Notes under the pieces: model-generated
What the model was told of the DNA's origin: nothing
The model's database searches: none
What the model saw: the letters and a program-made list of their open reading frames with translations, nothing else
Source: Bradyrhizobium monzae
Lineage (GTDB): Bacteria > Pseudomonadota > Alphaproteobacteria > Rhizobiales > Xanthobacteraceae
NCBI RefSeq assembly: GCF_021458635.1
Contig: NZ_JAIRDQ010000002.1
Location: 186,001-250,000 of the forward strand
Reading direction: 5' to 3'
Length of the DNA: 64,000 nucleotides
Program-made: the position numbers and the translations under genes
Shown here: in pieces, positions 18,828 through 32,975 of the stretch
Position numbering within the stretch: the first letter of the stretch is position 1
How the letters are laid out: the number at the start of each line of letters is the position of its first letter

Positions 18828-18844
18828 TGGCTGGGGAACTAGGA
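18828..18844 (+). repeat. attL core: TGGCTGGGGAACTAGGA
   Basis: 17-bp perfect direct copy of 32902-32918, the last 17 bases of tRNA-Gln including CCA, read on the opposite strand. The identity ends at 18845 (C versus T). The surrounding bases are not tRNA, so this is the left attachment remnant. Confidence 0.85.
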
Positions 18845-18915
18845 CCCTGGGGACCCCCAGCAAAAATTCAACGATTTCAACAACCGCATGATTTAAAACA
18901 CCTTTTCAGGCTGAG

Positions 18916-18954
18916 CGGTTACGAGTAGTGGTTACGAGTCACGGTTACGAGGAC
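18916..18954 (+). repeat. Three tandem 13-bp iterons, left end (putative integrase arm sites)
   Basis: Three 13-mers in exact tandem share the core GGTTACGAG (18917, 18930, 18943): CGGTTACGAGTAG, TGGTTACGAGTCA, CGGTTACGAGGAC. They lie 72 bases inside attL and directly before the integrase ATG. The same core recurs at the right end of the element. The position and regular phasing fit arm-type binding sites of a tyrosine recombinase, possibly also regulating int. Confidence 0.7.
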
Positions 18955-18958
18955 TCGA

Positions 18959-19705
18959 ATGTCGATCGCCACGAACATCCAAAAACGTCCTGGTCGCACG
19001 TCCTACTATGTCCGCGTCGGGGTGCCGCTGAAGCTCCAGCCGGTCCTCAAGCGCAAAGAGATCTGGCAATCCCTCAAGACCACGGATCCACGGCAGGCGC
19101 GCGATAGAGCCGCGCCAGTGATCGCTTCCTACCGCGCGCAGTTCGCCGACCTTGAGCAGCGCCGGGAGCCCTCCCCTGCGGACCTTCAGGCAGCCGTGTG
19201 GACGCACTATGAGACCGAGCTGGACCAGGACGGCCGGGCGCGCGCGGCGCTCCCCACGGACGCCATGGTGCGAGAGGCGACCGACAATCTCGCGGCCGAT
19301 ATCCAGGCCGGCCGCATCCCCTGGTCTGCGGACCCGTTGGTGCAACTCAACGCAACCATCGATCTGGTCGTCATGAAGGACGCCGCGAAGATGGACCGCG
19401 AGCGTCGCGCTATCCAGCTCGCGGAGCTCCGGAAGCACCTCGCCGCCGGCGAGACAGCCCTGATCGAATGGAAAGCCGACGAGGTGATCCAGAGCGAGCG
19501 GCTGCTGATCGTGAAGGGCTCGCCGGCCTATCGCGATCTGTGCCAGCGTTTGCAACGCGCCCAGGTCGAGATCCTACAGCGGGCCGCCGAGCGCGATGCT
19601 GGCACCTGGGCCGGTGCGCCGTCTGATCCGATCGTGGTGCCGGCCGATCTCACCCAGGGTAAGCGGATTCTCCCTCCAGAGACAAGCAGAGAGCAACAGC
19701 TCTAG
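18959..19705 (+). pseudogene. Tyrosine-recombinase integrase, truncated before the catalytic domain
   Basis: 248 residues. The N-terminal RPGRTSYYVRVGVPLKL and KEIWQSLKTTDPRQAR blocks (about 10-48) are those of DUF6538-type phage integrases, which then run through a helical core-binding region. The chain stops at ILPPETSREQQL. The Arg...His-x-x-Arg...Tyr catalytic domain, about 170 residues in relatives, is absent in all frames downstream as far as I can read. Position and orientation, beside attL and reading inward, are normal for an integrase. The remaining product could still bind DNA but should not recombine it. Confidence 0.75.
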
Positions 19706-20213
19706 TGCTTGTCCCGAAGGGAGAGAGGTTTCGAGGTTCATTCCATCGAAGGTTAATCTGGAGCGTAGCGTTCGTGATGACAAACGCAGCGAGGTGGCGT
19801 CCATTGACCTCGCCCTAAGCTCCGCATCTCGATTGCAAGCAATCACGCGGTTATCTGGCCGTAGCCGGATGCCCAACCCTCTGCCAGATGTCCATCAACA
19901 GTGGGGTGGAGAAGGATGCCGCAAGGCAGGGCCTTCATCTTTTTGGCGCGTTCGACGATCATAGATCGTCCGGTGTAACCTAGCCAAGGCGTCCTGCTCT
20001 TCACAGGGGAGCGCTTGGCCCGATATCCCGTTCGCCTGCGGCTGGCTCATAGGTGGCGTCATGTTCCGCCACACCGTTCAATTGGGCCGCTATACTGCTG
20101 CGCAGGGCGCAACAGGGTCTCATCAACTTACGCATATAGCGATCTGCACTCGGATCACGCGCACTTTTCTTCGAGGCTGAGTTGAAAAAACAGCGCGTGA
20201 CCGGCAGTGTGAT
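19706..20213. other. Gene-free stretch after the integrase fragment
   Basis: About 500 bases with no convincing coding frame; the short ORFs here have no family features. It is the likely scar of a deletion that removed the integrase C-terminus and probably the regulatory and early genes of the element. A promoter and terminator pair lies at its right end. Confidence 0.5.
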
Positions 20214-20222
20214 TGCTATAAT
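20214..20222 (+). promoter_or_regulatory. Extended -10 promoter (TGCTATAAT)
   Basis: TG at 20214-20215 and a perfect TATAAT at 20217-20222 form an extended -10 on the plus strand, rare in this GC-rich DNA. No good -35 is seen at 17 bp; GTGACC lies only 14 bp upstream. Transcription would start near 20229 and meet the hairpin at 20258-20291. Confidence 0.5.
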
Positions 20223-20228
20223 GATCTC

Positions 20229-20292
20229 GACACCGACGCCGTGTGTCTCATCAGGGAAAGCCTCCGGTGTGCAACTCCACCGGGGGCTTTTC
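20229..20292 (+). ncRNA. Candidate small RNA, about 64 nt
   Basis: Defined only by an extended -10 promoter upstream and a strong 12-bp stem terminator ending in TTTT. It runs opposite to the tail and head genes and holds no ORF. It could instead be the remnant leader of a deleted rightward gene. No known RNA family is recognised. Confidence 0.3.
20258..20291. terminator. Strong hairpin terminator after tape-measure gene
   Basis: AAGCCTCCGGTG (20258-20269) pairs over 12 bases, including one G-T wobble, with CACCGGGGGCTT (20278-20289); the loop is 8 bases. TTTT follows on the plus strand. It begins four bases past the tape-measure stop at 20295, so it also ends the leftward structural operon, with a shorter U-run (TTT) in that direction. 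Confidence 0.8.
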
Positions 20293-20294
20293 TC

Positions 20295-22520
20295 TTACCG
20301 GAGGATGCCTCCAGGACGCCGCTGCGTCCTTAGCTCCTGGGCGATCAGCGTCATGATGTGATGGCGGGCCGACTCCGCGACCGTCTTGCCCATGCGTTCA
20401 TGATCCTGTGTCGATTGGCCGGGGCTGCCCTGGACGGTTACGGCAATCTGCGGCGCGATAACATGCTGCGGTCCGATCATGGGCGCTGCCGTGCCGCCAG
20501 CGCCGCCGACCAAGCCGCCATCGGCGAACCTGGGAATGCGGTCGCTGTTGATCGCCTCAAGGGTCGCGCGGTGCTGCGCGGTCGCAGCCGCGTTGACCAC
20601 GAATTCACCGTGCGACAAGCGCGCCAAAACCCGGTCATCGCGCGGGCCACCTGGGCCGGTCACTTCGCCGCCGTCGGCGAACATCGGGAAGCTCAAGCCG
20701 CCGGTGCCCGCCCCAAGGCCCGACGACATGGCCGGCGCCGCTCCCGAGCCCAGGCCGAACACGCCGCCGATGCCGTTGAGCAGCGGTTTAATGATCAAGG
20801 CCTGGTTTGCCATCTGCAACAGCGAGCGTCCAAAGCTCGCCGCGAAGGATTGCAGCGACTGTGTCGCGGTCTTCGTGCCCATCTCGAAATCGGTGAGCGG
20901 GCCGTTCAAGCTGCTGGAGAACGAGTCACCGAGCCCCTTCAGGGCATTGTTAACCCGGATAGCCGCCGCCTCGGTGGAAGCGAGCGCGCGCGGAACGTCG
21001 TTCCCATAGATGCCGCGAAGTTCCTGGGCGATTTGCACGTCCTCCGGCGACATAAGCGCGGTCTGGCGGCTGAAATCGATCTGGGACTGAACCTTGGCCT
21101 TTGCCAGTGCATCCGCCGCATCGCTTGCGCGGCTCTGTAGCTCCTTAAACTTGGCCGCTTGGTCGGCAGTCTCTTTGCCGCCGTTCGCCTGCACGGCAGC
21201 CGTTTCCTGAGCCTCCGCGCGGAAGCGGGCCAGTGCCGCTTCACCCAGGCCTACCGCCTTAGTGTCGGCCTCCATTTGCTGGGTATGCCGGCGCAGCGAG
21301 TTGATCGCCGTATCAACCTTGTCGTCCTGGTTGGTCGTCGGTGCGCCTGGGGCCTTGGACGTATCGCGGCGAACGCCCGACTGAATGTTCGTCGCCTCTT
21401 GCATGGCGCGCTGCTGATTGGCCGGGTTCATCATGCCCGCCCGCAACCTGTTCACGCCATCAAGGCGCCGCGCATCGAGACCAGTCTCGATGCCGAGCGA
21501 AGCCGGGTCGGAATTCAGACCCAGCGCGCCGGTCATCTCGGTCATGCGGGTCCAGATCGACGAGCTACCCAGGGCCGCGAAGGCGTCGGGAATCTGCTTA
21601 AGCAGGCCGTAAAGCTTGTCCGCCAACCCGACCAATTCGGCGAAGGTCTCGACAACCGAGACCCAGTTGTCTTTGAAGTTGATACCGAGCTGGGCCATGT
21701 CCTGTTGGATCGGCTTCCATTTGTCGGCGAGGATCTTCTGGGCTTCGTCCATGCGGTCGCGCAGCTGGATTGCCCGGCCGATGTCGTCTTGGCTGACGAT
21801 CTCAGCCTTGGACATGGCGTCGGCCTTCTGGAGCATCTGATCCAGATAGCCGTTATCGGCGCGCAACGCCGCGGCGACGGGCTCGCCGAAAGCCTTGCCG
21901 GCAATGTCGAGGGCGGCGACCCGCTCGCCTTTCTGCATCGCCTGGTCAATCAGCGCGACGATCGCGCGAAGCCTGGTCTCGGTGTTCGTCGATCGCGCAA
22001 ACTGGCCAACCCCGGCATTGCCGGCGAAGTTTTCGGCCTTCACGAGCGCGTCGATCCGCTGTTGGAGCTCGCTTCCGCCAAGCTGTTCGGTTGACGCCTG
22101 ATTGAAGTGCTGTAGCGCCTCGGTGACCTGATCGATGGACAGCGCGGCACTAGGCGCGCTCTTGGTGAAGCGCTGAAAGAAGTCAGTTCCGACGCCGCTC
22201 GAGCCGGCCTTCGCTGCGATCGCGTTGAACGCTTCGATCTGCTGGCCGGCAAGCTCAACGCTCTTCTTTAGGAAAGCGAACGTATCGACGACGGCGGTGA
22301 CGCCCAGGGCGATCGGCCGGAGGGCCGTAAGCAGCCGCCCAAACGCAAGCGTTGCGGCGCCAGCCGTGCCCTGGGACGCCAGGAAGCCGGCCGACATTTT
22401 GATGGTAGTCGCGGTGACCGCGCGCGCTGCATTCGCCGCGAGCACGGAGGTTTCGTTCATCTGGCTCTTGAAGGTATCGAGGCCGGTGACTTTGATGGGG
22501 ATATTAAGCGCGGGCGTCAT
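20295..22520 (-). CDS. Phage tail tape-measure protein
   Basis: 741 residues. It is rich in alanine and helices with long amphipathic stretches, hydrophobic segments near 45-85 and coiled-coil-like regions around 380-480. The C-terminus carries the common tape-measure block FADGGEVTGPGG...HGEFVVNAAAT (about 625-665) with a second FADGGLVGG. Tape-measure proteins set tail length, at roughly 0.15 nm per residue, so a tail near 110 nm would be expected. It is the last gene of the leftward run and ends at the hairpin terminator. It overlaps the preceding small tail gene by 17 bases. Confidence 0.88.
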   Translation of the reverse strand: MTPALNIPIKVTGLDTFKSQMNETSVLAANAARAVTATTIKMSAGFLASQGTAGAATLAFGRLLTALRPIALGVTAVVDTFAFLKKSVELAGQQIEAFNAIAAKAGSSGVGTDFFQRFTKSAPSAALSIDQVTEALQHFNQASTEQLGGSELQQRIDALVKAENFAGNAGVGQFARSTNTETRLRAIVALIDQAMQKGERVAALDIAGKAFGEPVAAALRADNGYLDQMLQKADAMSKAEIVSQDDIGRAIQLRDRMDEAQKILADKWKPIQQDMAQLGINFKDNWVSVVETFAELVGLADKLYGLLKQIPDAFAALGSSSIWTRMTEMTGALGLNSDPASLGIETGLDARRLDGVNRLRAGMMNPANQQRAMQEATNIQSGVRRDTSKAPGAPTTNQDDKVDTAINSLRRHTQQMEADTKAVGLGEAALARFRAEAQETAAVQANGGKETADQAAKFKELQSRASDAADALAKAKVQSQIDFSRQTALMSPEDVQIAQELRGIYGNDVPRALASTEAAAIRVNNALKGLGDSFSSSLNGPLTDFEMGTKTATQSLQSFAASFGRSLLQMANQALIIKPLLNGIGGVFGLGSGAAPAMSSGLGAGTGGLSFPMFADGGEVTGPGGPRDDRVLARLSHGEFVVNAAATAQHRATLEAINSDRIPRFADGGLVGGAGGTAAPMIGPQHVIAPQIAVTVQGSPGQSTQDHERMGKTVAESARHHIMTLIAQELRTQRRPGGILR

Positions 22521-22845
22521 CGGGCTTTCCTACGTAAAGGGCCATGAGGAGATCGGCGGCAGCGGCAGCATTGGCGGCGACGGGCTTGCCCCGAACGTGC
22601 TGATCTAGAAGCTTGTCGGCGTCACGTTCCGGCATACCGGAGCCGACCAAACCAAGCTCCAAAATGCGTTCGATATCGTCGATCGAATAGGCGCCGGTCT
22701 CAAAACCGAGCAAGAGCGATGCCGCCGGCTTGCTGTTGATGCCGCGATAGCTCAGCACGCGGCGAACCCAGGGATGGTTGAGGTTCAAGCCATAGGTTTC
22801 CTCGCCCCAGGTGATCGTTCGGGCGCACGGGTCGATTTCACTCAC
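22504..22845 (-). CDS. Tail assembly chaperone-like protein (Phage_TAC_11 / GTA gp10-like)
   Basis: 113 residues. The block SIDDIERILELGLVGSGM and the later helix ending LLMALYVGKP resemble the pattern of GTA gp10-type tail assembly chaperones, which normally precede the tape measure, as here. It overlaps both neighbours (4 bases with the gp10-like gene, 17 with the tape measure). A second protein of this type is encoded at 30425-30745. The assignment rests on pattern and position only. Confidence 0.6.
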   Translation of the reverse strand: MSEIDPCARTITWGEETYGLNLNHPWVRRVLSYRGINSKPAASLLLGFETGAYSIDDIERILELGLVGSGMPERDADKLLDQHVRGKPVAANAAAAADLLMALYVGKPDDARA

Positions 22846-23234
22846 TTCAGAACCTCACTAACTGCATCATTGATTGCTTCCTGGATCTCGGGTTTGAGCG
22901 CACGGTAGGTTGGCCAAAAGAACGGCTGCGCGGTTTGGTGCGAGGTCCCGTATTCGAACGCCTCGGCGTAATCGTATGGCTCTCCGCTGCCCTCTCGCAC
23001 TTCCTTGGTTGTCATGTCGCCGCCGGCCTGCACGATGTATTCGAGATCGTTGGCGCCGGGGGCGACGGAGCACGACGCTTCCAAGGCGCCCGACTCCGGC
23101 GACTGCTCAAGCGCGCGCAATGCTTCGCGCTGGGAATCCGAAAGACGGAAGGCTTGTTCGCGGAGAACGTCCGATAGCTGCTCGGTGAGCTTGTCGGGCA
23201 GAGATGTGAGGTAGGTTTCGAGATCATCAGCCAT
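22842..23234 (-). CDS. HK97 gp10-like tail completion / neck protein
   Basis: 130 residues. The C-terminal half YAEAFEYGTSHQTAQPFFWP then TYRALKPEIQEAINDA is the hallmark of the HK97 gp10 family, which sits at the head-tail joint of siphophages. The start at 23234 is three bases after the terminase stop, and the end overlaps the next gene by four bases. Confidence 0.85.
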   Translation of the reverse strand: MADDLETYLTSLPDKLTEQLSDVLREQAFRLSDSQREALRALEQSPESGALEASCSVAPGANDLEYIVQAGGDMTTKEVREGSGEPYDYAEAFEYGTSHQTAQPFFWPTYRALKPEIQEAINDAVSEVLK

Positions 23235-23237
23235 GTG

Positions 23238-24884
23238 TCACCACGAAAGCAGGTCCGCCGTCACGGCGGGGTTGCTGTAAAGGGAAAGATTGGTGTCACC
23301 GGCAGCGGCGCGCGACACGGCCATCCAGGTCGCCGCGACGCCGTCAACGCGATCGGTGCTCTTGTCCTTGTGAATTGTGCGGTTGTCGTTTGCGTCGGTG
23401 CGGATGGCGACGTTGGCGAAGTTCCAGCGTAATACCGGATGGCCGCCATGCTGGAATTTGCCGCTGATGATAGCTGCCTCAAGAGTGTTGAGCGCAGGCG
23501 ATTGAAACTTCCAATACTGCGGGATGGTGACGACTGGGAAACCCTCCTGCGTCAACGGAGCTATCACGGCCTGGGCATAGGCCACGTCAAAGCCGATCTC
23601 TTGGACCTGGAAACGCTCCGCGAGCGATCGGATGTAGTCCGCCACCGCAGCGTTATCGATGACGTTGCCGGGCGTGGCTGTAATGAAGCCTTGCTTAGCC
23701 CAGGTCACGTAGTCGACGCCGTCGAGGTCGCCGCGCTTGCGGATATCGGCCTCGGGGCAAAAGAAGTGCGACAGCACGGTGTAGGTCTCGCCGTCTTTGA
23801 AGCACGCGACGACCGACGAAAGGTCGGTGGTCTTGGACATATCGACGCCAACCCAGCAGGGCGCACCGCGCAACGCCTCATAGTCGATCGGGTGGGCGCC
23901 CTTGTCATAAGTCGCCATATCGACAAAGGGTGAGGTCGAGTGGTCGAGCCAAACATTGAGCTTGTATTGCAACAGGCTGTTGCGTTCGGTCGGGCTGTCC
24001 TTTGCCGTTGCCACGTGTCGCCGAAAGCCCGCGATCGACGGATATCCATGGACGCTGCCGGGGTTCACGCGGCGCCATGCTTCCTCGCTAGTGTAATCAA
24101 CATCTGATGGGGATTCGAGCAACACCGGCAGCCACGTCGGGTCAACGATATCGCCGCGTGCGATCTTGCGGGCGCGCTCGATTACCTCATAGGCGATGTT
24201 GTCCTGTCCGCGACCGGCCGTCGTCGCAACGACAAGCAAGCTATTGTCGATCTTGTCCAGGCCATTGGCGAGAACAGTCCAAAGCGCAGTGCCCCGCCAG
24301 ACATGGATCTCGTCTGCCAGCACGAATGAAGGGGTCCGCCCGTCCTGGGACGGCGCGTCGGACGAGATCACTTCCAACTCGGTGCTGTCGTCGGGATAGC
24401 TGATCTTTTTGGCGCTGTTGAAGGCGTCATAGATTTTTGTCGCCGGGACAAGGTGCTTCGGATCTGCCTTGATGATCCCGCGCGCCTCTTTGAATGCGAT
24501 ACCCGCCTGCTTACGATCGCTGGCAGCAAAGATCACTTCGCCGCCGGCCACGCGCTCGGGGCCGATCGTGTGAAGCAGCGCCAATGCCGCGGATAGGCTG
24601 GTCTTGCGATTGCCTTTTGCGATGAGAATGACGACGCGCGAGATGATCCGGTTGCCGGCGTCGTCGCGCGGTCCATAGATCGCGCGGACGATACGCTCTT
24701 GCCAGGGATCAAGTTGGAATTGCTTTCGGGGCAGCGTCGATTTTGGATGCTTAAGCCGCCGGAGGAATTCGACCGCTCGCTCGCCATAGCCGAACGGGTC
24801 GGGAATTGGCGAGTCGTCGAAAATCCAGTGCGGATAGGTGTCCTTAGAGGGCGAGCGGATTGTCATCGTCGCCTTCGTTGTCAT
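23238..24884 (-). CDS. Terminase large subunit (HK97/Terminase_1 type)
   Basis: 548 residues. Its ATPase domain has a Walker-A-like VILIAKGNRKTSLSAAL (about 85-101), Walker B LADEIHVW (about 188-195) and the coupling motif VVATTAGRG. The C-terminal RNase-H-like nuclease begins VGVDMSKTTDLS, with further acidic residues in IGFDVAYAQ and STDRVDGVAA. It cuts and pumps DNA into the prohead through the portal. All motifs appear intact. The start overlaps the small subunit by 41 bases; an internal ATG at 24866 is an alternative. Terminase is normally the first structural gene, but here it comes late, after the capsid genes. Confidence 0.93.
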   Translation of the reverse strand: MTTKATMTIRSPSKDTYPHWIFDDSPIPDPFGYGERAVEFLRRLKHPKSTLPRKQFQLDPWQERIVRAIYGPRDDAGNRIISRVVILIAKGNRKTSLSAALALLHTIGPERVAGGEVIFAASDRKQAGIAFKEARGIIKADPKHLVPATKIYDAFNSAKKISYPDDSTELEVISSDAPSQDGRTPSFVLADEIHVWRGTALWTVLANGLDKIDNSLLVVATTAGRGQDNIAYEVIERARKIARGDIVDPTWLPVLLESPSDVDYTSEEAWRRVNPGSVHGYPSIAGFRRHVATAKDSPTERNSLLQYKLNVWLDHSTSPFVDMATYDKGAHPIDYEALRGAPCWVGVDMSKTTDLSSVVACFKDGETYTVLSHFFCPEADIRKRGDLDGVDYVTWAKQGFITATPGNVIDNAAVADYIRSLAERFQVQEIGFDVAYAQAVIAPLTQEGFPVVTIPQYWKFQSPALNTLEAAIISGKFQHGGHPVLRWNFANVAIRTDANDNRTIHKDKSTDRVDGVAATWMAVSRAAAGDTNLSLYSNPAVTADLLSW

Positions 24885-25242
24885 TCTCGCGCACGGCCGG
24901 CCGCGAACGCGAAACCGGGGTTAGCCCCAGCTCAGCGGCGAGCTGGCGAGCGGTCATCATGCTCTTGTCCTGGGCGCGGAGCAGCTTCAGGTCGATCTCG
25001 GTGCGCAAGAGCGCTTCCAACTGACGGACCCTACCCATGGCGACGCAGTAGCTCTCCAATGAGCCCAGGTCCGCAATGGTCAGGATGCGGCGTTTGGCAA
25101 GCTCGGGCATGACGCGGCGCCATTCGGCCTTCGCGTGCTTGCTCAACCAGGACGGCGGCCGGGTCGAGGCATCGAGAGCGTGCGAGCTTGGCGCCAACTC
25201 TGGCTTTCTGCCTCTCACTGTGACAATCTCTGAGTGAGACAT
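24844..25242 (-). CDS. Terminase small subunit, P27 family
   Basis: 132 residues. The block PPSWLSKHAKAEWRRVMPEL (about 28-47), followed by DLGSLESYCVAMGRV, is the standard P27 small-terminase signature, and the AARQLAAELGLTPVSRSR helix resembles its C-terminal part. Small terminases recognise the packaging site. It lies directly before the large subunit and 26 bases from the divergent moron start. Confidence 0.88.
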   Translation of the reverse strand: MSHSEIVTVRGRKPELAPSSHALDASTRPPSWLSKHAKAEWRRVMPELAKRRILTIADLGSLESYCVAMGRVRQLEALLRTEIDLKLLRAQDKSMMTARQLAAELGLTPVSRSRPAVRENDNEGDDDNPLAL

Positions 25243-25268
25243 CGGGCTGATGAGGGACTTTGGGCGTA

Positions 25269-26006: not shown

Positions 26007-26017
26007 GAAAGGCCTGT

Positions 26018-26751: not shown

Positions 26752-26752
26752 T

Positions 26753-27040
26753 TTAGAACGCAAATGCGCGATAAGGCGCGAGTAAATCGAGGAAGCCAAA
26801 GGGGAGAGCGCTGGCCGTCAGCCCGACAAGGCTGGCTTCGCGGTTTTCGTAAAGGTGCGCGGTCAATTGCAGCACGGCCTCATTCACCGGCGCCGGCGTG
26901 CCATTTACGTCGGGATCAGAGGCCGTATAGGCGCCAATCCAGGCCTTCGCCGCCGCCAGCTTGTCGGTAAGCAGGGTATCGTCGGCATCGATCGTGACGT
27001 TTAGATGGGCCTTGGCTTGGTCGAGGGTGATCCCGGGCAT
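26753..27040 (-). CDS. Head-tail connector protein (HK97 gp6-like)
   Basis: 95 residues, short for the family but complete. ITLDQAKAHLNVTIDADDTLL, with the later AVLQLTAHLYENREAS, is the gp6/DnaT-like connector pattern that forms the ring under the portal. It is followed one base later by the DUF3168 gene. Confidence 0.85.
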   Translation of the reverse strand: MPGITLDQAKAHLNVTIDADDTLLTDKLAAAKAWIGAYTASDPDVNGTPAPVNEAVLQLTAHLYENREASLVGLTASALPFGFLDLLAPYRAFAF

Positions 27041-27057
27041 GGTCGAAAAAACTCCAA

Positions 27058-27462
27058 TTAGACTCTGTCTTGCATCGAGGGAATGGACCGGTCGTTCGCG
27101 TTTTCTGAGAGGTGTTGACCCACCCCCGGGGTATTCGCGGCCATGTGCTGGTCCAGGCTGTGGCGTAGCTCAGCCATCTGTTCGTCCATCTGGCGGATGA
27201 GAGAACGAGCGAGGCGCGTCATCCGCCGATGTGCTGCATGCATGTCGCGCTGCCAGTCGCGAAGAGCGGGCAAGGCATGGACGAGCGACGATGAAGGTAG
27301 CGACATGGCCTTGCGGCCCTGCTTGCCTACCGGCTTGGTCAGTGCATCTTCCACCGACCAGCCCGCATCGAGCCGCTTGGTGAGAGTGTCCGAGCTGATA
27401 CCGGCAAGACGTGCCCAATCAGCGAGCGGGCGAGATACACCATTGAATTGGATCGGGCGCAT
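27058..27462 (-). CDS. Small phage protein with HTH-like segment
   Basis: About 134 residues from the ATG at 27462; ATG 27504 is an alternative that overlaps the HNH gene. The block RPLADWARLAGISSDTLTKR followed by LDAGWSVEDALTKP resembles helix-turn-helix segments common in phage head-region proteins of unknown role. The C-terminal half is helical with many Met, Arg and Gln residues. It lies between the HNH nuclease and the connector. Function unknown. Confidence 0.6.
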   Translation of the reverse strand: MRPIQFNGVSRPLADWARLAGISSDTLTKRLDAGWSVEDALTKPVGKQGRKAMSLPSSSLVHALPALRDWQRDMHAAHRRMTRLARSLIRQMDEQMAELRHSLDQHMAANTPGVGQHLSENANDRSIPSMQDRV

Positions 27463-27466
27463 GGGA

Positions 27467-27808
27467 CTAAATTGACCTTTCGAGGGATTGTTTGCGGCTG
27501 GCATGGCAGGGCGAGCTTGCAAGCGGCTGCCAATTGGAGCGCGACCAGAAGAGCTTCTTGTCGCCGCGATGGGGTATCTTGTGATCGACGCAGTCGGCGT
27601 GCCGGCCACAGCCGCATGCACAGAAGCGGTTCTCTGGCAGCGCCAAGAAAGCTTTGCTCTCGCGGCGCCACTTGCTGTCATAGCCGCGATCGTTGGCGTT
27701 CAGCCTGCGCTTGTCGTCTTCCTTGCGGCGCTGGCTTTGGCAGACACAGCGAGCATCGCCGGTGACGATCCGACCGCAAGCGCAGACACGACCACATTTG
27801 TAGGGCAT
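27467..27808 (-). CDS. HNH endonuclease
   Basis: 113 residues. Cysteine pairs near the N-terminus (CGRVCACG, CVC) and CACGCGRHADCVDHKIPH probably bind zinc. VDHKIPHRGD...NWQPLASSPCH gives the H-N-H core. Cos-packaging phages of the HK97 group use such a protein with the terminase for DNA cleavage. Here it sits among the capsid genes, about 2.6 kb upstream of the terminase genes in transcription order. It overlaps the stop of the preceding gene by one base. Confidence 0.85.
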   Translation of the reverse strand: MPYKCGRVCACGRIVTGDARCVCQSQRRKEDDKRRLNANDRGYDSKWRRESKAFLALPENRFCACGCGRHADCVDHKIPHRGDKKLFWSRSNWQPLASSPCHASRKQSLERSI

Positions 27809-28356
27809 TAGCGCGGCCTCACGTGGTTGGTGAGATCGCCGATGGCGTTGAGGTCATCCTTGATGCCGGATACATTGCTAGCGTCGGCGGACTGTTCCTT
27901 GCTGCCGAAAACAGCCGCGAGAATATCCTTCAGCAACTCCATACGGCCTTCGCGCGCAGCGAGGATTTCGGCCGGCGTCGCATCCCACACAACGTCCGGC
28001 GCCCAGCCCAATTGGCCGGCACCGATCTTGTAAAGATAGGTGACATGCTCTTCGAAAGAGATGAACTCGCCCGACTGCGGCTTGTCGTTTGAAGTATCGC
28101 CGCCGCGCAGGATCAGGATGAATTCGAGAAGCTGATCGCGCGCGTCAAGGATGCTGCGAATCGAGGCCGGCGGCACGTCTGCGCATGTTGCCGTGATCAG
28201 ATCCATGCTGGCGGTGTAGTCGCCGTCTAGGATGGCCTGATAGAGCCCCTGGAAACTATACTTCTGATGGAGGTGGAATGCAGCACGCAACGTTGGACGC
28301 AAGGTGATGACCTTGCTTCCGACCTGGAGGGCAAATGTTGCGTGCTGCATGTTCAT
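27808..28356 (-). CDS. Probable tail assembly chaperone-like phage protein
   Basis: 182 residues. The N-terminal part (FALQVGSKVITLRPTLRAAF, about 8-27) and following helices resemble the N-domain of GTA/TAC-type tail chaperones. The part with LGWAPDVVWDATPAEILAAR resembles GTA proteins of the rcc01693 type, and the tail is low-complexity. It follows the major capsid gene by two bases. The identification is tentative; it would be the third TAC-like gene in the element. Confidence 0.5.
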   Translation of the reverse strand: MNMQHATFALQVGSKVITLRPTLRAAFHLHQKYSFQGLYQAILDGDYTASMDLITATCADVPPASIRSILDARDQLLEFILILRGGDTSNDKPQSGEFISFEEHVTYLYKIGAGQLGWAPDVVWDATPAEILAAREGRMELLKDILAAVFGSKEQSADASNVSGIKDDLNAIGDLTNHVRPR

Positions 28357-28358
28357 AA

Positions 28359-29486
28359 TTAGGTCGCCGAGACCTTGAGCTTCACGAACCGGTCAGGGTT
28401 GGTGATCGAGCCGCCCACGCGCTTGCGCGAGTGGAAGCGGGTCTGGCCCTTGGTCGCCATGCTGTAAGGGTCACGAAGCACCTGGAACGAGATGCGATCG
28501 ACAATGCGGTAGCCGGACAGGTCACCGAACAAGATCGGGAACTTGTTCGCGCCGATATCGTCCATATCGATGGCTTCGACGATCGGACGGCCGAGCAGCG
28601 TCGGCGCGGCGCCGTTGTTGAGATCGTCGATCAAGAGGTAGCGGCCCATGCCGTCTTTGAACTGGCGGATGGCCGAGATCGTGTTGCGGTTCATCAACCA
28701 TGCACCGCGCTGAGCCCAGAGCGTCGGGATGGCGTGGAACATGCCGATCAGCACGTCTGCCGGCGTCGAGGTCGGGAAGTTGGCCGCGGCACCGGTGATG
28801 ACCTGGGCGATGCCGCTGGCGGTCATCAGGCCGGCCGGCTGGGTGGTCCCGTTGCCCTTCACAAAGGCGGTGCCTTCAGCAATAGCGAACGACTCCGCCG
28901 TATCGGAGGCCAGCTCGCCTTCCAGATTATAGGCCTGATCTTCCAAGAGCTGATTGCTAACGTCCGTGTAGGTCGCGGCTTCGTAGGGCGTGATGGTCAC
29001 GCCTGCGTAAGACGGATCACTCGGGGTGCGGTCGGCAGTGTCGGCGACCCAGGTGGCCGCCGTGCTGCCGGTGCGGCTCGGATACTGAACCTGTGCGGCG
29101 CCGACGGTCACGACGCGCGCATACTGGCGGATCGGCGAGAACTGGCGGAGAAGCTTCAGAACTTCGGCGCCGAATTCCGGCGGCGTCAGCACAGTGTTGC
29201 CGGCGGCGGCGAGTGACTTCTTTTCGATCTCGCTGAGGGTGTCGGGACCGGTGCGAAGGAACCTCTCGAAAGACTTTCGTTCGATGTCGTCGGTGACAGC
29301 GCCGTGGCCCTGCCGGTTCAACTTGGCTTCCAGGCGGTCGAGGCGTTCGGCCGACTTGGTCTCGATCGCCTTGATACGATCTTCGAACGAGCCCTGGAAG
29401 CCCTCAAGGGCCTTGGTCACGATCGCGGCCGGATCGTCGTTACCGGCGCCGGTGTCTTTCAGTTCGAGGGGAGAAACATGCTTCAT
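28359..29486 (-). CDS. Major capsid protein, HK97 fold
   Basis: 375 residues from the ATG at 29486; the frame is open to 29633 without family similarity. The first about 95 residues form a charged, coiled-coil-like delta domain (ETKSAERLDRLEAKLNRQG), which in HK97 is removed by the protease. The mature shell protein then starts near AAAGNTVLTPPEFGAEVL and carries the E-loop and spine blocks VQYPSRTGSTAATWVAD, NRNTISAIRQFKD and GRYLL. The end VGGSITNPDRFVKLKVSA is typical. It directly follows the protease gene by 31 bases. Confidence 0.93.
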   Translation of the reverse strand: MKHVSPLELKDTGAGNDDPAAIVTKALEGFQGSFEDRIKAIETKSAERLDRLEAKLNRQGHGAVTDDIERKSFERFLRTGPDTLSEIEKKSLAAAGNTVLTPPEFGAEVLKLLRQFSPIRQYARVVTVGAAQVQYPSRTGSTAATWVADTADRTPSDPSYAGVTITPYEAATYTDVSNQLLEDQAYNLEGELASDTAESFAIAEGTAFVKGNGTTQPAGLMTASGIAQVITGAAANFPTSTPADVLIGMFHAIPTLWAQRGAWLMNRNTISAIRQFKDGMGRYLLIDDLNNGAAPTLLGRPIVEAIDMDDIGANKFPILFGDLSGYRIVDRISFQVLRDPYSMATKGQTRFHSRKRVGGSITNPDRFVKLKVSAT

Positions 29487-29517
29487 GGTAGAGGACTTGC
29501 CTTTCAGAGGGGTGGGT

Positions 29518-30015
29518 TCACTTGGAGGATGACGCCGCCGTGAAGCGTCGAATGATTGCGGCCAAGGCTTGCGCCTCGTCGTAGCTTTTGGCGGATGTAA
29601 CGCGCGCCCTCGGGTGCGCTGGATTGCGGACAAGAGAGACTTCGACCAGGTCGAGCGCGCTGATGACGCGGTTGCGGCCTTGCTGCTTTGCCTCGCGCGT
29701 GCGGAAGCCGATCGACAAACCGGAGACCAGACCGGACTTCACCATTGAAAGAATGGAGCGTGCGCGAGGCTGGTCTTTATGGATCGCGCCTTTAACGATC
29801 AGGCCGTCATTGGTCTCCGAAACTTCGGACCAACTGCCGACAAGGTCAGAGGGATCGTGCGAGAATAGCATCGGCAAGTCGGCGGCGACGTTGAAGGCGC
29901 CCTTGGTGATCGTGTCGCCGACGCTGTCCGGGCCGGCATTGAACGGCCAAGCGGTGCCGACGATCGTCCCTTCGGCGTCCACGCTCAGCGTCGCTTTGAT
30001 CTCTAGGCGGTCCAT
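29518..30015 (-). CDS. HK97-family prohead protease
   Basis: 165 residues from the ATG at 30015. MDRLEIKATLSVDAEGTIVG, then a MLFSHDPSDLVGSW block carrying the catalytic-type His (about residue 52), and VKSGLVSGLSIGFR with the nucleophile Ser region, are family hallmarks. It cleaves the delta domain of the capsid protein during head maturation. It overlaps the preceding gene by one base. A longer frame to 30252 lies over that gene and is rejected. Confidence 0.9.
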   Translation of the reverse strand: MDRLEIKATLSVDAEGTIVGTAWPFNAGPDSVGDTITKGAFNVAADLPMLFSHDPSDLVGSWSEVSETNDGLIVKGAIHKDQPRARSILSMVKSGLVSGLSIGFRTREAKQQGRNRVISALDLVEVSLVRNPAHPRARVTSAKSYDEAQALAAIIRRFTAASSSK

Positions 30016-30428
30016 CAGTTGTTCCGATAGGCGCTGTAGAGATTGATGACGCGATCGGCGGCTTGCGCGACTGGCGTCGCTGAAGTGCCGCTGCGGATTT
30101 TCAGGTAGCGAATGGCAAACCAGCTCCATGACGCAATGCGAATGGCGCGATTGGCTGCGGCCTGAAATGAGACTTCGCCATTTTCGTCCCAGAAGTCGCG
30201 ATAGGTCACACCGTCGCTGCTCACTTGGAATGTAATCACGGCGGAGGTCCAAGCGCTCGGCATCTCGATACCCGCCAGCGCGTGGTTAGCCAGATCGATT
30301 GGCGCTGAAAGATTTTGGCCGCTCAGAATGGTCGCTGGCGCATTGTAGTCGATGCGCGAGCCATCACCGGTCACAATGATCGGTAGAGGATTGTTGTCGG
30401 CGATGGGGGTGCCGGTGGCGAAGCTCAC
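30015..30428 (-). CDS. Hypothetical phage structural protein
   Basis: 137 residues, not recognised. It has no signal or membrane segment and is rich in Ser, Ala and Ile in short strands. The motif ITFQVSSDGVTYRDFWDENG suggests a beta-sandwich, as in head decoration or receptor-type phage proteins. It overlaps both neighbours (1 and 4 bases), in the slot between a tail-chaperone-like gene and the protease. Confidence 0.6.
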   Translation of the reverse strand: MSFATGTPIADNNPLPIIVTGDGSRIDYNAPATILSGQNLSAPIDLANHALAGIEMPSAWTSAVITFQVSSDGVTYRDFWDENGEVSFQAAANRAIRIASWSWFAIRYLKIRSGTSATPVAQAADRVINLYSAYRNN

Positions 30429-30745
30429 TTAGATGTTTCCTTTTCGTTGGGGTTGCCGAAGAGCGTCCGCTCGATGATTTTCGTGGCTAATTCGTAGGTT
30501 TCGATCAGTGGCCGACCGTCGACATAGGCGACGATCAGCTCATAGGCGCGTTTCGGGGCGGTGCCGCCGCCGATCAGCGCAAGGCGAATGGTTTCGTTGA
30601 TGTCGGCCTGGGCGAAGTTGCGCGCAAAAAGTCGATTGCTGAGCGCGCCGATGGGACCACACTGCTTTTCAAGCTCCTGAATCAGGGGCTTGGTAAGATG
30701 GAAGGCGTGCTCGCCGTCGCCGAAAAAGGTTGTGTATGAGGTCAT
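30425..30745 (-). CDS. Tail assembly chaperone, GTA gp10 type (Phage_TAC_11-like)
   Basis: 106 residues from the ATG at 30745; the open frame to 30820 overlaps the tail I gene and is rejected. FFGDGEHAFHLTKPLIQELE (about 6-25) and TIRLALIGGGTAPKRAYELI fit the GTA gp10/TAC_11 pattern closely. Such proteins normally sit next to the tail tube and tape-measure genes. Here it is close to the portal, 8 kb from the tape measure, without a tail-tube gene. Confidence 0.75.
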   Translation of the reverse strand: MTSYTTFFGDGEHAFHLTKPLIQELEKQCGPIGALSNRLFARNFAQADINETIRLALIGGGTAPKRAYELIVAYVDGRPLIETYELATKIIERTLFGNPNEKETSK

Positions 30746-30747
30746 GG

Positions 30748-31419
30748 TCACTGCCCGAAAGCCGTCTCGATTGAACCGGCGCTGTCGGCATAGACGCTGA
30801 TGTCTTCCACGTCGGACCACGCTTCCACTGGCGTCGATCCGACCATGACCTCGCCGTAGATCAGCGGGACCGCGTCGCCTTGCTTGCCTGAATTGCCGAT
30901 GTTGCCGCCGTTTACGGTGAGGCCATTGGAGGCCTGCGGTGACGGACTGGCGGGCTTTGTGAGGAGCGTTGAGGCGCCGGACAGCGCGAGACCCAGGCCG
31001 ATCGCTGCCACGGTGCCGTAACTCATGCCGCCGACCAGCGGAACGCCACTGAGCGCGCCGATGGGCGTCGCCAGCATGCCGCCAGACAGAAAGATTGCAC
31101 CGCCGACCAGGGCCGCACCGAGAACGATCTTGGTGGTGCCCTTCGCGGTGCTGGATTTCGCGCCTCGGATCACCGGATAGATATGCAGGTCCGCAGCGCC
31201 CAGATTGAACTGATTGACGAGATCGAGATCAAGCTGCATGCCGGAGCGCTTGTCGCCGCGAACGATCCTGTAATACCCTTGCTGAATCGTTTTGACGAAA
31301 CGACCAGGGAAAGCGCAGTTGAGCGCGCGCAGCGCCTCGCCGGCCGTCATCACGTCGAAACGATGTGACGAACCGAAGTCTTTGCCGAGCCGGCCGTGCA
31401 GATGGATGGTTCGAAGCAT
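30748..31419 (-). CDS. Tail assembly protein I (lambda TapI-like)
   Basis: 223 residues. The N-terminal domain MLRTIHLHGRLGKDFG...FDVMTAGEALRAL is the lambda tail assembly I signature, here with ISP-like RGDKRSG. A glycine-rich hydrophobic stretch (about 98-150) follows, then GKQGDAVPLIYGEVMVGSTP. In lambda-like phages it acts at the tail tip next to genes K and J, which are missing here. Its location directly after the portal gene (one-base overlap) is unusual. Confidence 0.85.
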   Translation of the reverse strand: MLRTIHLHGRLGKDFGSSHRFDVMTAGEALRALNCAFPGRFVKTIQQGYYRIVRGDKRSGMQLDLDLVNQFNLGAADLHIYPVIRGAKSSTAKGTTKIVLGAALVGGAIFLSGGMLATPIGALSGVPLVGGMSYGTVAAIGLGLALSGASTLLTKPASPSPQASNGLTVNGGNIGNSGKQGDAVPLIYGEVMVGSTPVEAWSDVEDISVYADSAGSIETAFGQ

Positions 31420-32681
31420 CAGGCGGCCTCTTTGTTGTTGTCGGTGTTGTCGTTGGCGCTGAGGGCGCCGCCAGCATGTGCGGACGACGTATTGGGGTTC
31501 TCAAAGGTGTCGCCGCCCTCATAAGCAGGCAGGCCAAAGCCAATCGAGCGCGCTTCATTCGGATTGAGGATCCGGGCCGCAACGGCAACGGAAAGGGCCT
31601 GCGCGCGAGCGAGCAGATCAGCGCGGGCGAAGGCGTCGAGGTTGAACTCGATGCAGAACTGGCCGCGCTCTTCTTTCGCGAGCAACTTCAACTCAAGAGC
31701 CTGCTCCCAGCGCTTCAGCCAGGGCAGCAAGGTCATGGTGACGAATTCTTGGCCCAGCGCCTCGATGCTACGCGGCATTGCGCGGTCGGCTTCCATCAGC
31801 ATGTGCAGCGGCACACGGAAAAGGCGGGCGATCTCCGCGATTGCGAATTTGCGTAGCTCCAGGAATTGGGCGTCCACGCTGGAAAATGTCATCGCCTGCC
31901 AGGAGGCGTCGCTTGGCAATACTGCGGTGCCGCCGGAGCTGGTCCCGCTGTGCGCGGCCTGCCACGCGGTTTTGGCCTTGCCGAGCGCGTCGGCCGTAAG
32001 GTTGCCCTTCAAGCTCAAAACACCGGACGGGCGGGCGCCGTTACCAAAGAGTCGAGCGGCGTGTTGCTCCAGGACCATGCACAGAGCGATGGCTTCGCGA
32101 CCCTCGCCGACCAGGCCGCGCGTCGGGCGGTAGGCCGGACTGTGAATGTGGATGATGTCGGCGGCGGGAATTTCGCGCGCGGGGTTTTTGCCGTCCGCTT
32201 TGATTGCGTAGGCCGGCTCAAAATTCGAGTAGTCGACGACGATCGAGGAAAGCTGCGGGTCGAGCCGGATCAGTTCATACGGCTTGCCGTCCACGCGCAC
32301 GATCTGGGCGAACCCACCGTAGGGCTGCAACAGCGCGTCGGCGGTGACCTGGGAACGGAACACCGAGGCCGGCGTCCAAGCATTCGGTGCATCACCGAGA
32401 AGCGAGAACAGGGGATGGTCGGTAGCGGGCTCTTTGCCGCCGTCGGGCAGCCGCTTGTAGACGCGCAAGGGAAGCTGGCCGACCGCCTCGGAGATCGAAC
32501 GGACGGCGCACGCAACCGGCGCGCACGACATGGCGCTGGCCGGGGTTACGGAGGCGCCAGCGATGGTCTGGGCGGCACCGAACAGGGACAGCAGAAAGTC
32601 GTCGGGCTCAGCGAGGCTGGCCTTGGTCTCGATACCGAGAAGGGATTTGAAGCGGGAAGCGATCGACAAAAGGGCACACAA
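31419..32681 (-). CDS. Phage portal protein, HK97 family
   Basis: 420 residues. The portal core is evident: SEAVGQLPLRVYKRLPDGGK (about 63-82), HIHSPAYRPTRGLVGEG, FSSVDAQFLELRKFAIAEIA then RLFRVPLHMLM, and LPWLKRWEQALELKLLAKEE. The start is uncertain: the frame opens with a TTG at 32681, there is no early ATG and no clear ribosome site. It is the first gene of the leftward structural run, so its promoter should lie at 32682-32900 beside the right-end iterons. Confidence 0.9.
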   Translation of the reverse strand: MCALLSIASRFKSLLGIETKASLAEPDDFLLSLFGAAQTIAGASVTPASAMSCAPVACAVRSISEAVGQLPLRVYKRLPDGGKEPATDHPLFSLLGDAPNAWTPASVFRSQVTADALLQPYGGFAQIVRVDGKPYELIRLDPQLSSIVVDYSNFEPAYAIKADGKNPAREIPAADIIHIHSPAYRPTRGLVGEGREAIALCMVLEQHAARLFGNGARPSGVLSLKGNLTADALGKAKTAWQAAHSGTSSGGTAVLPSDASWQAMTFSSVDAQFLELRKFAIAEIARLFRVPLHMLMEADRAMPRSIEALGQEFVTMTLLPWLKRWEQALELKLLAKEERGQFCIEFNLDAFARADLLARAQALSVAVAARILNPNEARSIGFGLPAYEGGDTFENPNTSSAHAGGALSANDNTDNNKEAA

Positions 32682-32802
32682 GAGACGTTGGCCCGCTGGT
32701 CAGGCGAGCGAAGAACGGGTTCTCTGTGTGCAATTTTGTTTCGGAAACTAATCCGATGACGCAAGAATATGATGCGCGCCAATTGTGGCGGAAGTGAGTC
32801 GC

Positions 32803-32841
32803 GGTTACGCTCTGCGGTGCCGAAAAGCGGTTACGAGTGGC
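32803..32841 (+). repeat. 13-bp iterons, right end (putative integrase arm sites)
   Basis: CGGTTACGCTCTG, CGGTGCCGAAAAG and CGGTTACGAGTGG follow one another in the same 13-bp phase and orientation as the left set; the middle copy is degenerate (6 of 9 in the core). A fourth weak copy may precede them at 32790. They end 60 bases inside attR. Matching iterons at both element ends argue for recombination arm sites. Confidence 0.65.
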
Positions 32842-32901
32842 ACCGTTTTTAGGTCACCGATATCCGCCTAAGTGTCTGATTTCATTGACGAAATATCGAT
32901 A

Positions 32902-32918
32902 TGGCTGGGGAACTAGGA
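32902..32918 (+). repeat. attR core within the 3' end of tRNA-Gln
   Basis: Second copy of the 17-bp repeat TGGCTGGGGAACTAGGA. It is the CCA end, acceptor 3' strand and start of the T-arm of tRNA-Gln, so the element restored an intact tRNA on integration. Confidence 0.85.
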
Positions 32919-32975
32919 TTCGAACCTAGACAAACAGAGTCAGAGTCTGTTGTGCTACCGTTACACCATTCCCCA
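32902..32975 (-). tRNA. tRNA-Gln (anticodon CUG)
   Basis: 74 bases with encoded CCA. Acceptor TGGGGAA pairs with TTCCCCA. The anticodon stem ACAGA/TCTGT encloses the loop CTCTGAC with anticodon CTG, and the T-loop is TTCGAAT on a CTAGG/CCTAG stem. Only the U1-A72 start and Gln-type features are needed for the call. It is the attachment site of the prophage-like element and appears fully functional. Confidence 0.95.

Follow-up and report, generated by a model that had tools for sequence, protein, structure and literature searches.

Autonomous HK97-type prophages carry their genes in the order terminase, portal, protease, capsid, neck, tube, tape measure and tip, and RcGTA, which has canonical order and both tail tube and tip genes, has neither an integrase nor att sites; GTAs of this type fill their particles with random host DNA. 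Among satellites, PICI regulation is of the AlpA/Stl type, and cf-PICIs are reportedly the subject of the study by Alqurainy et al. 2023. As described in PMC10690885 and PMC11389934, cf-PICIs encode their own capsid, protease, portal, connectors, HNH, TerS and TerL and need a helper tail, while the satellite MulchRoom has a tail of helper length that is thought to be helper-derived (PMC10690885). According to the account in PMC12987554, hybrid tails were reported in 2026 for one Vibrio satellite family, the PLE satellites of V. cholerae, which use the helper capsid. Here we compare with these systems an element in a 64,000-nucleotide stretch of Bradyrhizobium monzae DNA (the window), together with its relatives.

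A truncated element at a tRNA-Gln gene

The element occupies 14.07 kb of the window between exact 17-bp copies (TGGCTGGGGAACTAGGA) of the 3' end of its integration site, a tRNA-Gln(CTG) gene (32902-32975, minus strand): the tRNA-side att repeat lies at 32902-32918 and the distal one at 18828-18844. To the first-pass annotation we add an integrase remnant at the far end (18959-19705, plus strand), a truncated DUF6538 tyrosine integrase that aligns only to residues 1-240 of a 591-aa relative; its catalytic domain is absent, and the window copy should therefore need a relative's integrase to move. Beyond the tape measure gene, a 589-bp stretch is left (19706-20294), with 83-84% identity in two relatives and partly inverted in two others. 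In seven relatives, the distance between the exact tRNA-end repeats (17-20 bp) is 17.7-18.7 kb; compared with these, the window copy has lost ~4 kb beside its integrase. Judged by this comparison, the window region is a truncated copy of an ~18-kb integrative element family of Nitrobacteraceae.

Pfam and PHROGs profile searches of the window proteins bore out the gene content and leftward order noted at first pass: between the att repeats lie 17 genes in non-standard order (20295-32681, all on the minus strand), every one of them open and free of internal stops with the start codons that we chose. They begin with an HK97-type portal (31419-32681; PF04860), for which the RcGTA portal was a weaker third match among solved structures, the lambda gpI-like tail assembly protein TapI (30748-31419; assigned by PHROG, with Pfam below cut-off), tail assembly chaperone 1 (TAC1, TAC_11 type, 30425-30745; PF11836, predicted hairpin and helices) and a 137-aa protein without an assigned role that only some family members have (30015-30428). 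There follow an S78 prohead protease (29518-30015), an HK97-fold major capsid protein whose nearest solved structure is RcGTA Rcc01687 (28359-29486), a PF09550-type chaperone (TAC_6, 27808-28356; a short match of 31 residues, predicted beta-hairpin and helices), an HNH endonuclease (27467-27808; phrog_2323) and an adjoining HTH-like protein (27058-27462; phrog_3377 / phrog_1065). Next come the head-tail connector Ad1 (26753-27040; PF05135), a gp17/DUF3168-like tail completion protein (26329-26751; PF11367), a head closure or head completion protein (26018-26332; PF05521), the small terminase subunit TerS (24844-25242; PF05119) and the large subunit TerL (23238-24884; PF03354 and PF20441). The series ends with a gp10-like tail completion/neck protein (22842-23234; phrog_5), tail assembly chaperone 2 (TAC_11, 22504-22845; PF11836, GTA-gp10 like) and a 741-aa tape measure protein with a C-terminus resembling those of lambda-tailed phages (20295-22520).

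The first-pass annotation was right about tight packing as such, although overlaps of 1-4 bases between most neighbors, as it put it, were found at only 6 of the 16 junctions. Two more junctions overlap by 17 and 41 bp (8/16 overlapping in all), seven have gaps of 1-31 bp, and the last is a 775-bp gap containing an oppositely oriented accessory gene (25260-26006, plus strand), a slot occupied by different genes in different relatives. The single terminator that it proposed comes down to a hairpin with a weak T-run after the tape measure gene, read by eye; it was not among the hits of a terminator consensus scan, and the nine terminator-like sites in the region were not above chance (shuffled mean 12.2).

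A mobile family with a conserved gene order

The same noncanonical order recurs in 43 of the 45 distinct relatives from Bradyrhizobium, Tardiphaga, Rhodopseudomonas and virus records, 25 of which had all 15 marker genes. Capsid identity among relatives ranged from 34 to 90% at this fixed order, making very recent copying an unlikely source of the conservation. In the pairs tested, dN/dS was 0.11-0.31 for eight genes, and TapI gave 0.08-0.13 among elements (four of the ratios rest on dS over 1); by these values, the element genes are under purifying selection.

As in satellites, integration at att sites is associated with a tyrosine integrase in the family, the window's own being truncated. Exact tRNA-end repeats bounded all eight elements tested (the window copy and seven relatives), the repeat-bounded relatives were inserted at tRNA-Gln, -Pro and -Leu genes, and the integrase of one relative (G130) carried PF00589; no homologue of the window-type integrase was detected in G150 or G213b within the sequence stretch examined. 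Empty sites were also seen, a DUF1428 gene adjoining tRNA-Gln without an insert in four of six other loci examined.

Functions absent from the elements

Profiles recognised no tail tube, tip, fibre or lysis gene in the window copy or in the fuller relatives, in line with the first-pass statement on lysis and tip genes; a diverged tube could escape such profiles, while PHROGs did recognise the tip genes of one candidate helper. Since the fuller relatives likewise lack tip and lysis genes, this absence is a family trait, and the earlier idea of a gene-losing prophage holds for the ~4 kb lost locally in the window and for the broken relatives G012, G121 and G213b, but not for the missing tip and lysis genes.

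The accessory set comprised 88 ORFs from nine relatives plus one window gene, some of them overlapping, and contained no tail, lysis or replication family (PHROGs E<=0.001; Pfam E<=0.01). Neither PICI-type regulation and replication genes nor, at these thresholds, lysogeny-control genes were recognised there. Weak sub-threshold matches linked one accessory protein of G223 to holin (E 0.0083), spanin (0.017) and minor tail protein (0.057), and one relative had a weak REP_ORF2-G2P match (E 0.016). No baseplate-hub gene was recognised in the family, and the two of the three chaperones that were modelled (TAC1 and the PF09550-type protein) are mainly helical. At the thresholds used, the particle and lysis gene set is incomplete, as in a satellite, and the elements have neither the gene order nor the lysis and lysogeny-control genes of an HK97-type prophage.

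Tail pieces in common with large phages

The elements do carry genes for head, packaging and neck, for chaperones, for a short tape measure and for TapI. The TapI of the window has 67-74% identity to its counterparts in candidate helper phages, the nearest of which are metagenomic fragments whose host is not shown; in 265 Bradyrhizobium genomes, J of the helper type was almost absent. When 19 element proteins were compared with the stretches around 21 TapI genes lacking element head genes, only TapI and the C-terminal part of the tape measure matched, the latter in 9 of the 21. On the TapI tree, the label switches between element and phage five times, each switch being forced by supported branches.

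In the genomes of two relatives, elements combine a phage-type tape-measure C-terminus with a family-type body (G150, G213a/b): the body is 63-91% identical to the main family type, whereas the last 52 residues have 58-75% identity to phages L104/L105/L109 and 25-42% to other elements. Bodies of these proteins scored near the best of 20 shuffles against the same phages; comparisons above shuffles were G150-L105 (97 vs 72) and window-L138 (123 vs 86). Element tape measures are 719-789 aa long (13/13), against 1361-1618 aa at nine phage loci whose TapI is 42-74% identical. Short tape measures are not unique to elements, since candidates in three more distant phages (L143, L146, L150; TapI 31-37%) have only 751-754 aa. 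The window C-terminus is 35-40% identical to most phage C-termini compared; it had no match in the phage collection, in which no helper of the window's tail type was found. At the level of sequence, the TapI and tape-measure C-terminus that the elements have in common with large lambda-tailed phages show exchange, not assembly.

A probable hybrid-tail satellite and the alternatives

A helper-dependent satellite, one of the options raised at first pass, is supported by the conserved order, the purifying selection and the lack of a recognised tube, tip or lysis gene. We consider it probable that the family consists of phage satellites that form their own capsids and build hybrid tails using the tube and tip of a helper. 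In a cell where a compatible large phage or phage-plasmid is active, an intact element would excise, build its own small head and package its own DNA with its own HNH/TerS/TerL. Its chaperones and short tape measure would direct the helper's tail-tube protein, and the tape measure would dock on the helper tip complex via a helper-matched C-terminus and TapI. Helper lysis would then release hybrid particles with head and neck from the satellite and tube and tip from the helper, their tails ~half as long as those of candidate helpers. We give roughly even weight to a further proposal, that TapI and the last ~52 tape-measure residues form a swappable "tail adapter" that sets the usable helper and has been repeatedly exchanged with large siphophages or phage-plasmids.

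Alternatively, a capsid-forming satellite might take complete tails from the helper, with its own tape measure, chaperones and TapI serving as decoys that poison helper tail assembly and are not built in. Satellites and prophages that block tail assembly are described (PMC11364771; Rta in PMC12987554), and the truncated G121 element persists with portal, TapI and part of TAC1. Yet the tape measures are of full length, show purifying selection in the pair tested and carry phage-type C-termini, as expected of built-in parts, and neck and tail-completion genes are also retained; decoys seem unlikely.

We see only a slim chance that these are small autonomous temperate siphophages whose tip is minimal and whose tail tube escaped recognition. 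They do have terminase, head and neck genes, chaperones and a tape measure as well as integrase and att repeats, some phages have short tape measures, and the 137-aa and accessory proteins without an assigned fold could be invoked; however, each family-wide gene has an assignment, in no case to tube or tip, the genes without one are variable, no lysis family was found in the 88 accessory ORFs at the thresholds used, and 18 kb would be a very small genome for a complete siphophage.

A gene transfer agent or domesticated particle gene cluster, the GTA-like particle of the first-pass annotation, is very improbable. The family has a capsid related to that of RcGTA and the same GTA-type chaperone families, PF11836 and PF09550, and the window integrase lacks its catalytic part. 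But the fuller relatives, unlike RcGTA, have an integrase and att repeats and no recognised tube or tip, and the elements, present in 16 of 265 genomes, sit at three kinds of tRNA gene, with empty sites elsewhere. A one-off decayed prophage with genes shuffled by recombination, which the first-pass annotation would have favored had no relatives kept the order or had selection been relaxed, is scarcely credible and for the family refuted by the conserved order (43/45, with dN/dS 0.08-0.31 in pairs tested, tight packing and no internal stops), even though the window copy is truncated on the integrase side and three relatives are also broken.

Relation to described satellites and implications

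Read as hybrid-tail satellites, the rhizobial elements would resemble PLE in bringing their own tape measure and chaperone, of a length unlike the helper's, with other tail parts from the helper (described for PLE in PMC12987554; here from genes alone). The fold of TAC1 weakly matched the PLE1 chaperone 5ir0 (Foldseek E 3.5; Z 2.9 over 81 residues, rmsd 4.9). In the PMC12987554 account, PLE uses helper capsid proteins, whereas the rhizobial family has its own capsid, protease, portal and packaging genes, as well as TapI, no recognised baseplate-hub gene and alphaproteobacterial hosts. The complete capsid and packaging set is shared with cf-PICIs, from whose descriptions the elements differ in adding tape measure, chaperones and TapI and in having the terminase after the capsid. 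They thus fall outside a definition of cf-PICIs by a whole helper tail and no tail genes, which may not be strict given that some cf-PICIs are said in PMC12987554 to carry putative tmp genes. Mulch/Flayer Streptomyces satellites likewise encode capsid and packaging, with another gene set, direct terminal repeats and Streptomyces hosts, and the passages on MulchRoom in PMC10690885 report no tail genes. On our best reading, the combination of a putative PLE-like hybrid tail and a cf-PICI-like own head, plus TapI, sets the rhizobial family apart.

Small rhizobial "incomplete prophages" of odd gene order can therefore be an ordered mobile family. If the hybrid-tail reading is true, this would be a separate satellite family in nitrogen-fixing soil bacteria, bringing head, neck, chaperones, tape measure and TapI and needing only tube, tip and lysis from its helper. 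If the tail adapter is real, an own head, neck and short tape measure would be grafted onto a foreign tube and tip, and changing two small pieces would change the reachable helper and thus the hosts. The swapping of the C-terminus and of TapI points to the siphophage tail components on which compatibility may depend.

Layout and ends of the element

The region at 18828-32918 is probably a truncated copy of a capsid-forming satellite family whose members would assemble a hybrid tail on a helper's tube and tip. In the 8.28-Mb genome around the window, TGGCTGGGGAACTAGGA lies at 18828-18844 and has an exact copy within the 3' end of a tRNA-Gln gene at 32902-32918. Pfam and PHROGs profiles delineated 17 minus-strand genes between the two copies, in transcription order: portal, lambda gpI-like tail assembly protein (TapI), a TAC_11 tail assembly chaperone ("chaperone 1"), an unknown 137-aa protein, S78 protease, HK97 capsid, a TAC_6-type chaperone (PF09550), HNH, an HTH-like protein, Ad1 connector, gp17/DUF3168, head closure, TerS, TerL, a gp10-like protein, a second TAC_11 ("chaperone 2", PF11836 like chaperone 1), and tape measure. 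None of the 17 reading frames is interrupted, and neighboring genes overlap or lie ≤31 bp apart at 15 of the 16 junctions; a single opposite-strand gene (25260-26006, +) separates head closure from TerS. The integrase at the far end is a remnant: it aligns to a 591-aa relative over residues 1-240, and the catalytic domain (PF00589, residues 417-567 in Bradyrhizobium genome G130) is missing from the window copy.

Gene order is conserved across a family of elements

The first-pass annotation had argued that so unusual but tidily packed an order is not what random decay gives, and had proposed seeking it in other Bradyrhizobium. The order does recur: it is kept in 43 of 45 distinct elements (those with capsid and TAC_6, duplicates removed and the window itself excluded), including records from Tardiphaga, Rhodopseudomonas and IMG/VR, and 25 of these 43 carry all 15 marker genes. 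Within the genus, a capsid search matched 46 of 265 genomes. Element-type neighbors were found at 15 of the 30 capsid loci viewed (one of the 30 being the window's own), the other 15 being portal-protease-capsid prophages or unresolved loci that were left aside. Across 15 longer stretches from 14 genomes, order was identical over the length each covers; some are cut off by a contig end, that of G012 breaks off inside the connector, and TerL is split in G213b. At locus L042 (G213:C1), TerL is interrupted by ~1.2 kb of inserted sequence at about 5046-6240. Two different family elements occur in one genome or isolate record in two cases, L100 with L131 and L041 with L042 (G213). TapI searches of the same 265 genomes yielded 17 copies in 16 genomes at 56-100% identity and weak matches in two more, while a TapI profile detected 59 loci in IMG/VR and 13 in species genomes (ten Bradyrhizobium, a Tardiphaga MAG, Rhodopseudomonas palustris JSC-3b, and a Methylocystis MAG, the last with TapI only). 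Many of the loci compared come from metagenomes. No description of this element family was found among the top matches in open-licence literature.

In both exceptions among the 45, L135 and L147, TapI is located elsewhere. In these variant elements, and in L134, it lies beside TAC_6/HNH rather than after the portal, a placement suggesting that it is mobile as one unit. Looking beyond the family, we screened 397 genomes of the taxonomic order and found TapI in 8 others. Five TapI stretches, taken from four of these eight genomes, had no element-type gene block; one of the five, L164, also had a chaperone-1-like match. In a strongly deleted relative (L076, G121:C325, 7731-9861), the integrase comes directly after portal, TapI, and a fragment of chaperone 1.

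Sequence divergence within the family is considerable, with capsid identities to the window's ranging from about 34% to 90% across loci. The capsid of the G082 element matches the window's at 90% identity, against 61-62% for the protease and 46% for TAC_6, indicating that alleles recombine while gene order stays. The proposal that relaxed selection would mark a one-off decayed prophage was evaluated through dN/dS, which pointed instead to purifying selection: between the window and G082, seven genes had ratios of 0.11-0.19 and TerL one of 0.31, with the values of TerL, connector, gp17, and TerS being rough since their dS exceeds 1, and TapI ratios among elements were 0.08-0.13 in four pairs. 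These low values speak for long use of the proteins, and not for continued activity of the window copy since its truncation.

Fuller relatives, integration sites, and accessory genes

In all eight elements for which a tRNA was found and both ends were available, a copy of the tRNA's final 17-20 bp lies past the integrase, with the repeat extending 3 bp beyond the tRNA in one of them. Length between repeats was 17.7-18.7 kb in seven relatives, versus 14.07 kb in the window, and integration sites comprised tRNA-Gln, -Pro, and -Leu. Bradyrhizobium sp. RP6, cir1, and NAS80.1 are among the carriers of a full-length copy. The window's flank was matched in 15 of 21 genomes, giving 12 loci, seven of which were examined (one being the window's own). 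Four of the other six (L169, L170, L171, and L173) represented an empty site, in which the DUF1428-like gene that also flanks the window's element lies no more than about 60 bp from tRNA-Gln. In L172 the tRNA was absent within the stretch, and in L174 tRNA-Gln was in opposite orientation about 200 bp away.

Variable small genes occupy the region between tape measure and integrase, amounting to about 3.7 kb in G130 and 3.9 kb in G133, and 589 bp of this region is left in the window copy. The 589-bp stretch (19706-20294) is 83-84% identical in the G213a and G213b elements, and G098 and G232 have ~430 bp of it in inverted orientation. A repeat-mediated deletion of the integrase was considered and rejected, the 589-bp remnant being single-copy in its own genome. 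No homolog of the window-type integrase was detected in G150 and G213b within the stretches available. In G223, the protein after the tape measure (L046, 164-1273) has a weak Pfam match to REP_ORF2-G2P (E 0.016) and a PHLHG stretch similar to the HUH replication motif; some other relatives carry an unrelated 147-182-aa protein at this position. Between head closure and TerS, relatives carry either differing opposite-strand genes, several of which by eye have a membrane-like N-terminus, or genes on the same strand that are like the HNH/AP2 family; the slot looks like a cargo hotspot. A PADLOC search (E ≤ 0.1) with 10 proteins from the accessory slots recovered no known defense gene.

The elements appear to lack a tail tube, a tip, and lysis genes

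By profile, no family-wide gene falls under tail tube, tip, fiber, or lysis; each was assigned some different role. The accessory set, drawn from nine relatives plus one window gene, comprised 88 partly overlapping ORFs (81 picked, of which 3 at joins were left out, leaving 78, and 10 added by hand). In this set, PHROGs (E ≤ 0.001) returned 13 families, all HNH/endonuclease or unknown, and Pfam (E ≤ 0.01) returned 10 families, none linked to tail or lysis. At a laxer limit, one G223 protein weakly matched holin (0.0083), spanin (0.017), and minor tail protein (0.057). PHROGs did pick up the tip genes on a candidate helper contig.

Three candidates for a hidden tail tube were set aside. The head closure-TerS gap is the slot of variable opposite-strand or HNH genes, and the 137-aa protein is an improbable candidate, as it occurs in only part of the family. 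The PF11836 proteins, a tail tube by Pfam and PHROGs name, were set aside on the predicted structure of chaperone 1: its model is a beta-hairpin plus five helices (pLDDT 87.9), and the PF09550 model has the same start with extra helices (pLDDT 79.6). Chaperone 1 had no clear fold match in the PDB (best Foldseek E 0.38, best Z 2.9), a result which carries no weight either way. The elements may nonetheless encode a very diverged tail tube.

Tape measure and TapI connect the elements to candidate helper phages

Next to the elements, we analyzed 21 TapI loci picked as being without element head genes. When 19 element proteins were searched against the stretches around TapI at these loci, the only matches (E ≤ 0.01) were to TapI (21 of 21) and to the C-terminal part of the tape measure (9 of 21). 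At loci L104-L111 and L114, whose records measure 7.9 to 67 kb, TapI was 67-74% identical, and in L109 its position is lambda-like, with a long tape measure and M/L/K-like proteins ahead of it and J, the helper-type tail-tip protein, behind it. Among the matches listed from 50,697 phage records, TapI reached at best 41% identity, and portal and TerL 32-36%.

Element tape measures, counted from the first possible start, span 719-789 aa (13 of 13), those at nine phage loci with TapI 42-74% identical span 1361-1618 aa, and the candidates in three distant phages (L143, L146, and L150, TapI 31-37%) are just 751-754 aa, as short as those of the elements; L106, L110, and L142 held no complete candidate. 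If tail length scales with the tape measure, two references give a rough range: in PLEs, 95 aa correspond to about 10 nm (PMC12987554), and the Bradyrhizobium phage ppUSDA122Bd-1 has a reported 125-nm tail (PMC10127595) and a tape measure of 692 aa by coordinates. On this basis, the window's 741 aa would give an estimated 80-135 nm, and the phages at L104, L105, and L109 roughly 155-280 nm.

The C-terminus of the tape measure appears exchangeable. Over the body, the G150, G213a, and G213b tape measures share 63-91% identity with the main family type, whereas the window, G082, and G133 differ from it in body type. Over the final 52 residues, the G150 and G213a/b proteins show 58-75% identity to L104, L105, and L109 but only 25-42% to other elements, with 56% shared between G150 and G213. 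Against the same three phages, their bodies scored 69-105, the best of 20 shuffles being 72-104; G150-L105 was the one body pair above its shuffles (97 versus 72). The window's C-terminus belongs to a different type, with 35-37% identity to L104, L105, and L109 and no match at E ≤ 1 among the 50,697 phage records. In IMG/VR this type occurs at 22 loci, namely 18 elements (11 on records typed in the TapI survey and 7 typed separately) and four phage contigs forming two near-copy pairs, each of the four with a TapI match and a large downstream frame that is J-like by eye. We infer that the tape-measure C-terminus would be a docking end fitting a lambda-like tip, swapped to fit the helper.

The TapI tree comprised 64 rows (44 elements and 20 phages, with L134 counted as an element and L143 as a phage), leaving out L073, L147, and L150 for long branches and L057 as a duplicate. 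Element and phage labels changed five times, all five forced by supported branches, versus a mean of 17.3 for shuffled labels. The main element clade, including the window, is nested among phage rows L104, L105, L107, L108, L110, and L111 at a 26-row fork (100/99), and the G232 element clusters with L089, L124, and L128. TapI has passed between elements and phages on more than one occasion; as the tree was drawn from its midpoint, it gives no direction of transfer.

As to the identity of the helpers, the nearest relatives of the L109 J are those of 115-117-kb Rhizobium phages (43-44%) and, more distantly, of SSU5-type phages. Three ~117-kb records with a lambda-like TapI (L136, L141, and L128) had an AAA_31 match above cut-off (ParA-type, a broad family), and several 106-119-kb plasmids bear TapI relatives. 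Together, these observations suggest that some candidate helpers may be phage-plasmids, a reading based on the ~117-kb records rather than on the fragments nearest the window's TapI. Element TerL was found in none of eight candidate helper records, a search run without a positive control on records that may be fragments. No resident helper was evident in Bradyrhizobium, where helper-type J matched 7 of 265 genomes, mostly partially or off-frame: G044 was the sole match to the main part (37%, on a 4-kb contig), and four were C-terminal (27-29%). The matches in G121 and G122 (about 40 residues) were discarded, since they fall in a different frame over the end of tapI in the elements themselves.

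Relationship to known satellites and gene transfer agents

PLEs join their own tape measure and chaperone to helper parts in hybrid tails and take capsid proteins from the helper (PMC12987554). The family likewise has its own tape measure and chaperones but differs in encoding its capsid rather than drawing on that of a helper. cf-PICIs provide their own head and packaging and obtain the tail from a helper (PMC10690885, PMC11389934), and a figure legend marks putative tmp genes in some of them (PMC12987554). The family shares own head and packaging genes with them, while its tail genes set it apart from that description. With RcGTA it has capsid and chaperone relatives in common, while its integrase, its att repeats, and the tail parts it lacks distinguish the two. 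Many virus-like particles are known to be shed by Bradyrhizobium strains, and the passages reporting them do not describe this element (PMC10127595, PMC11599138). We consider the family to work like PLEs and cf-PICIs yet to be filed under neither. Taken together, this family would merge traits of PLEs and cf-PICIs, and add to them TapI, a distinct gene order, and a distinct host group.
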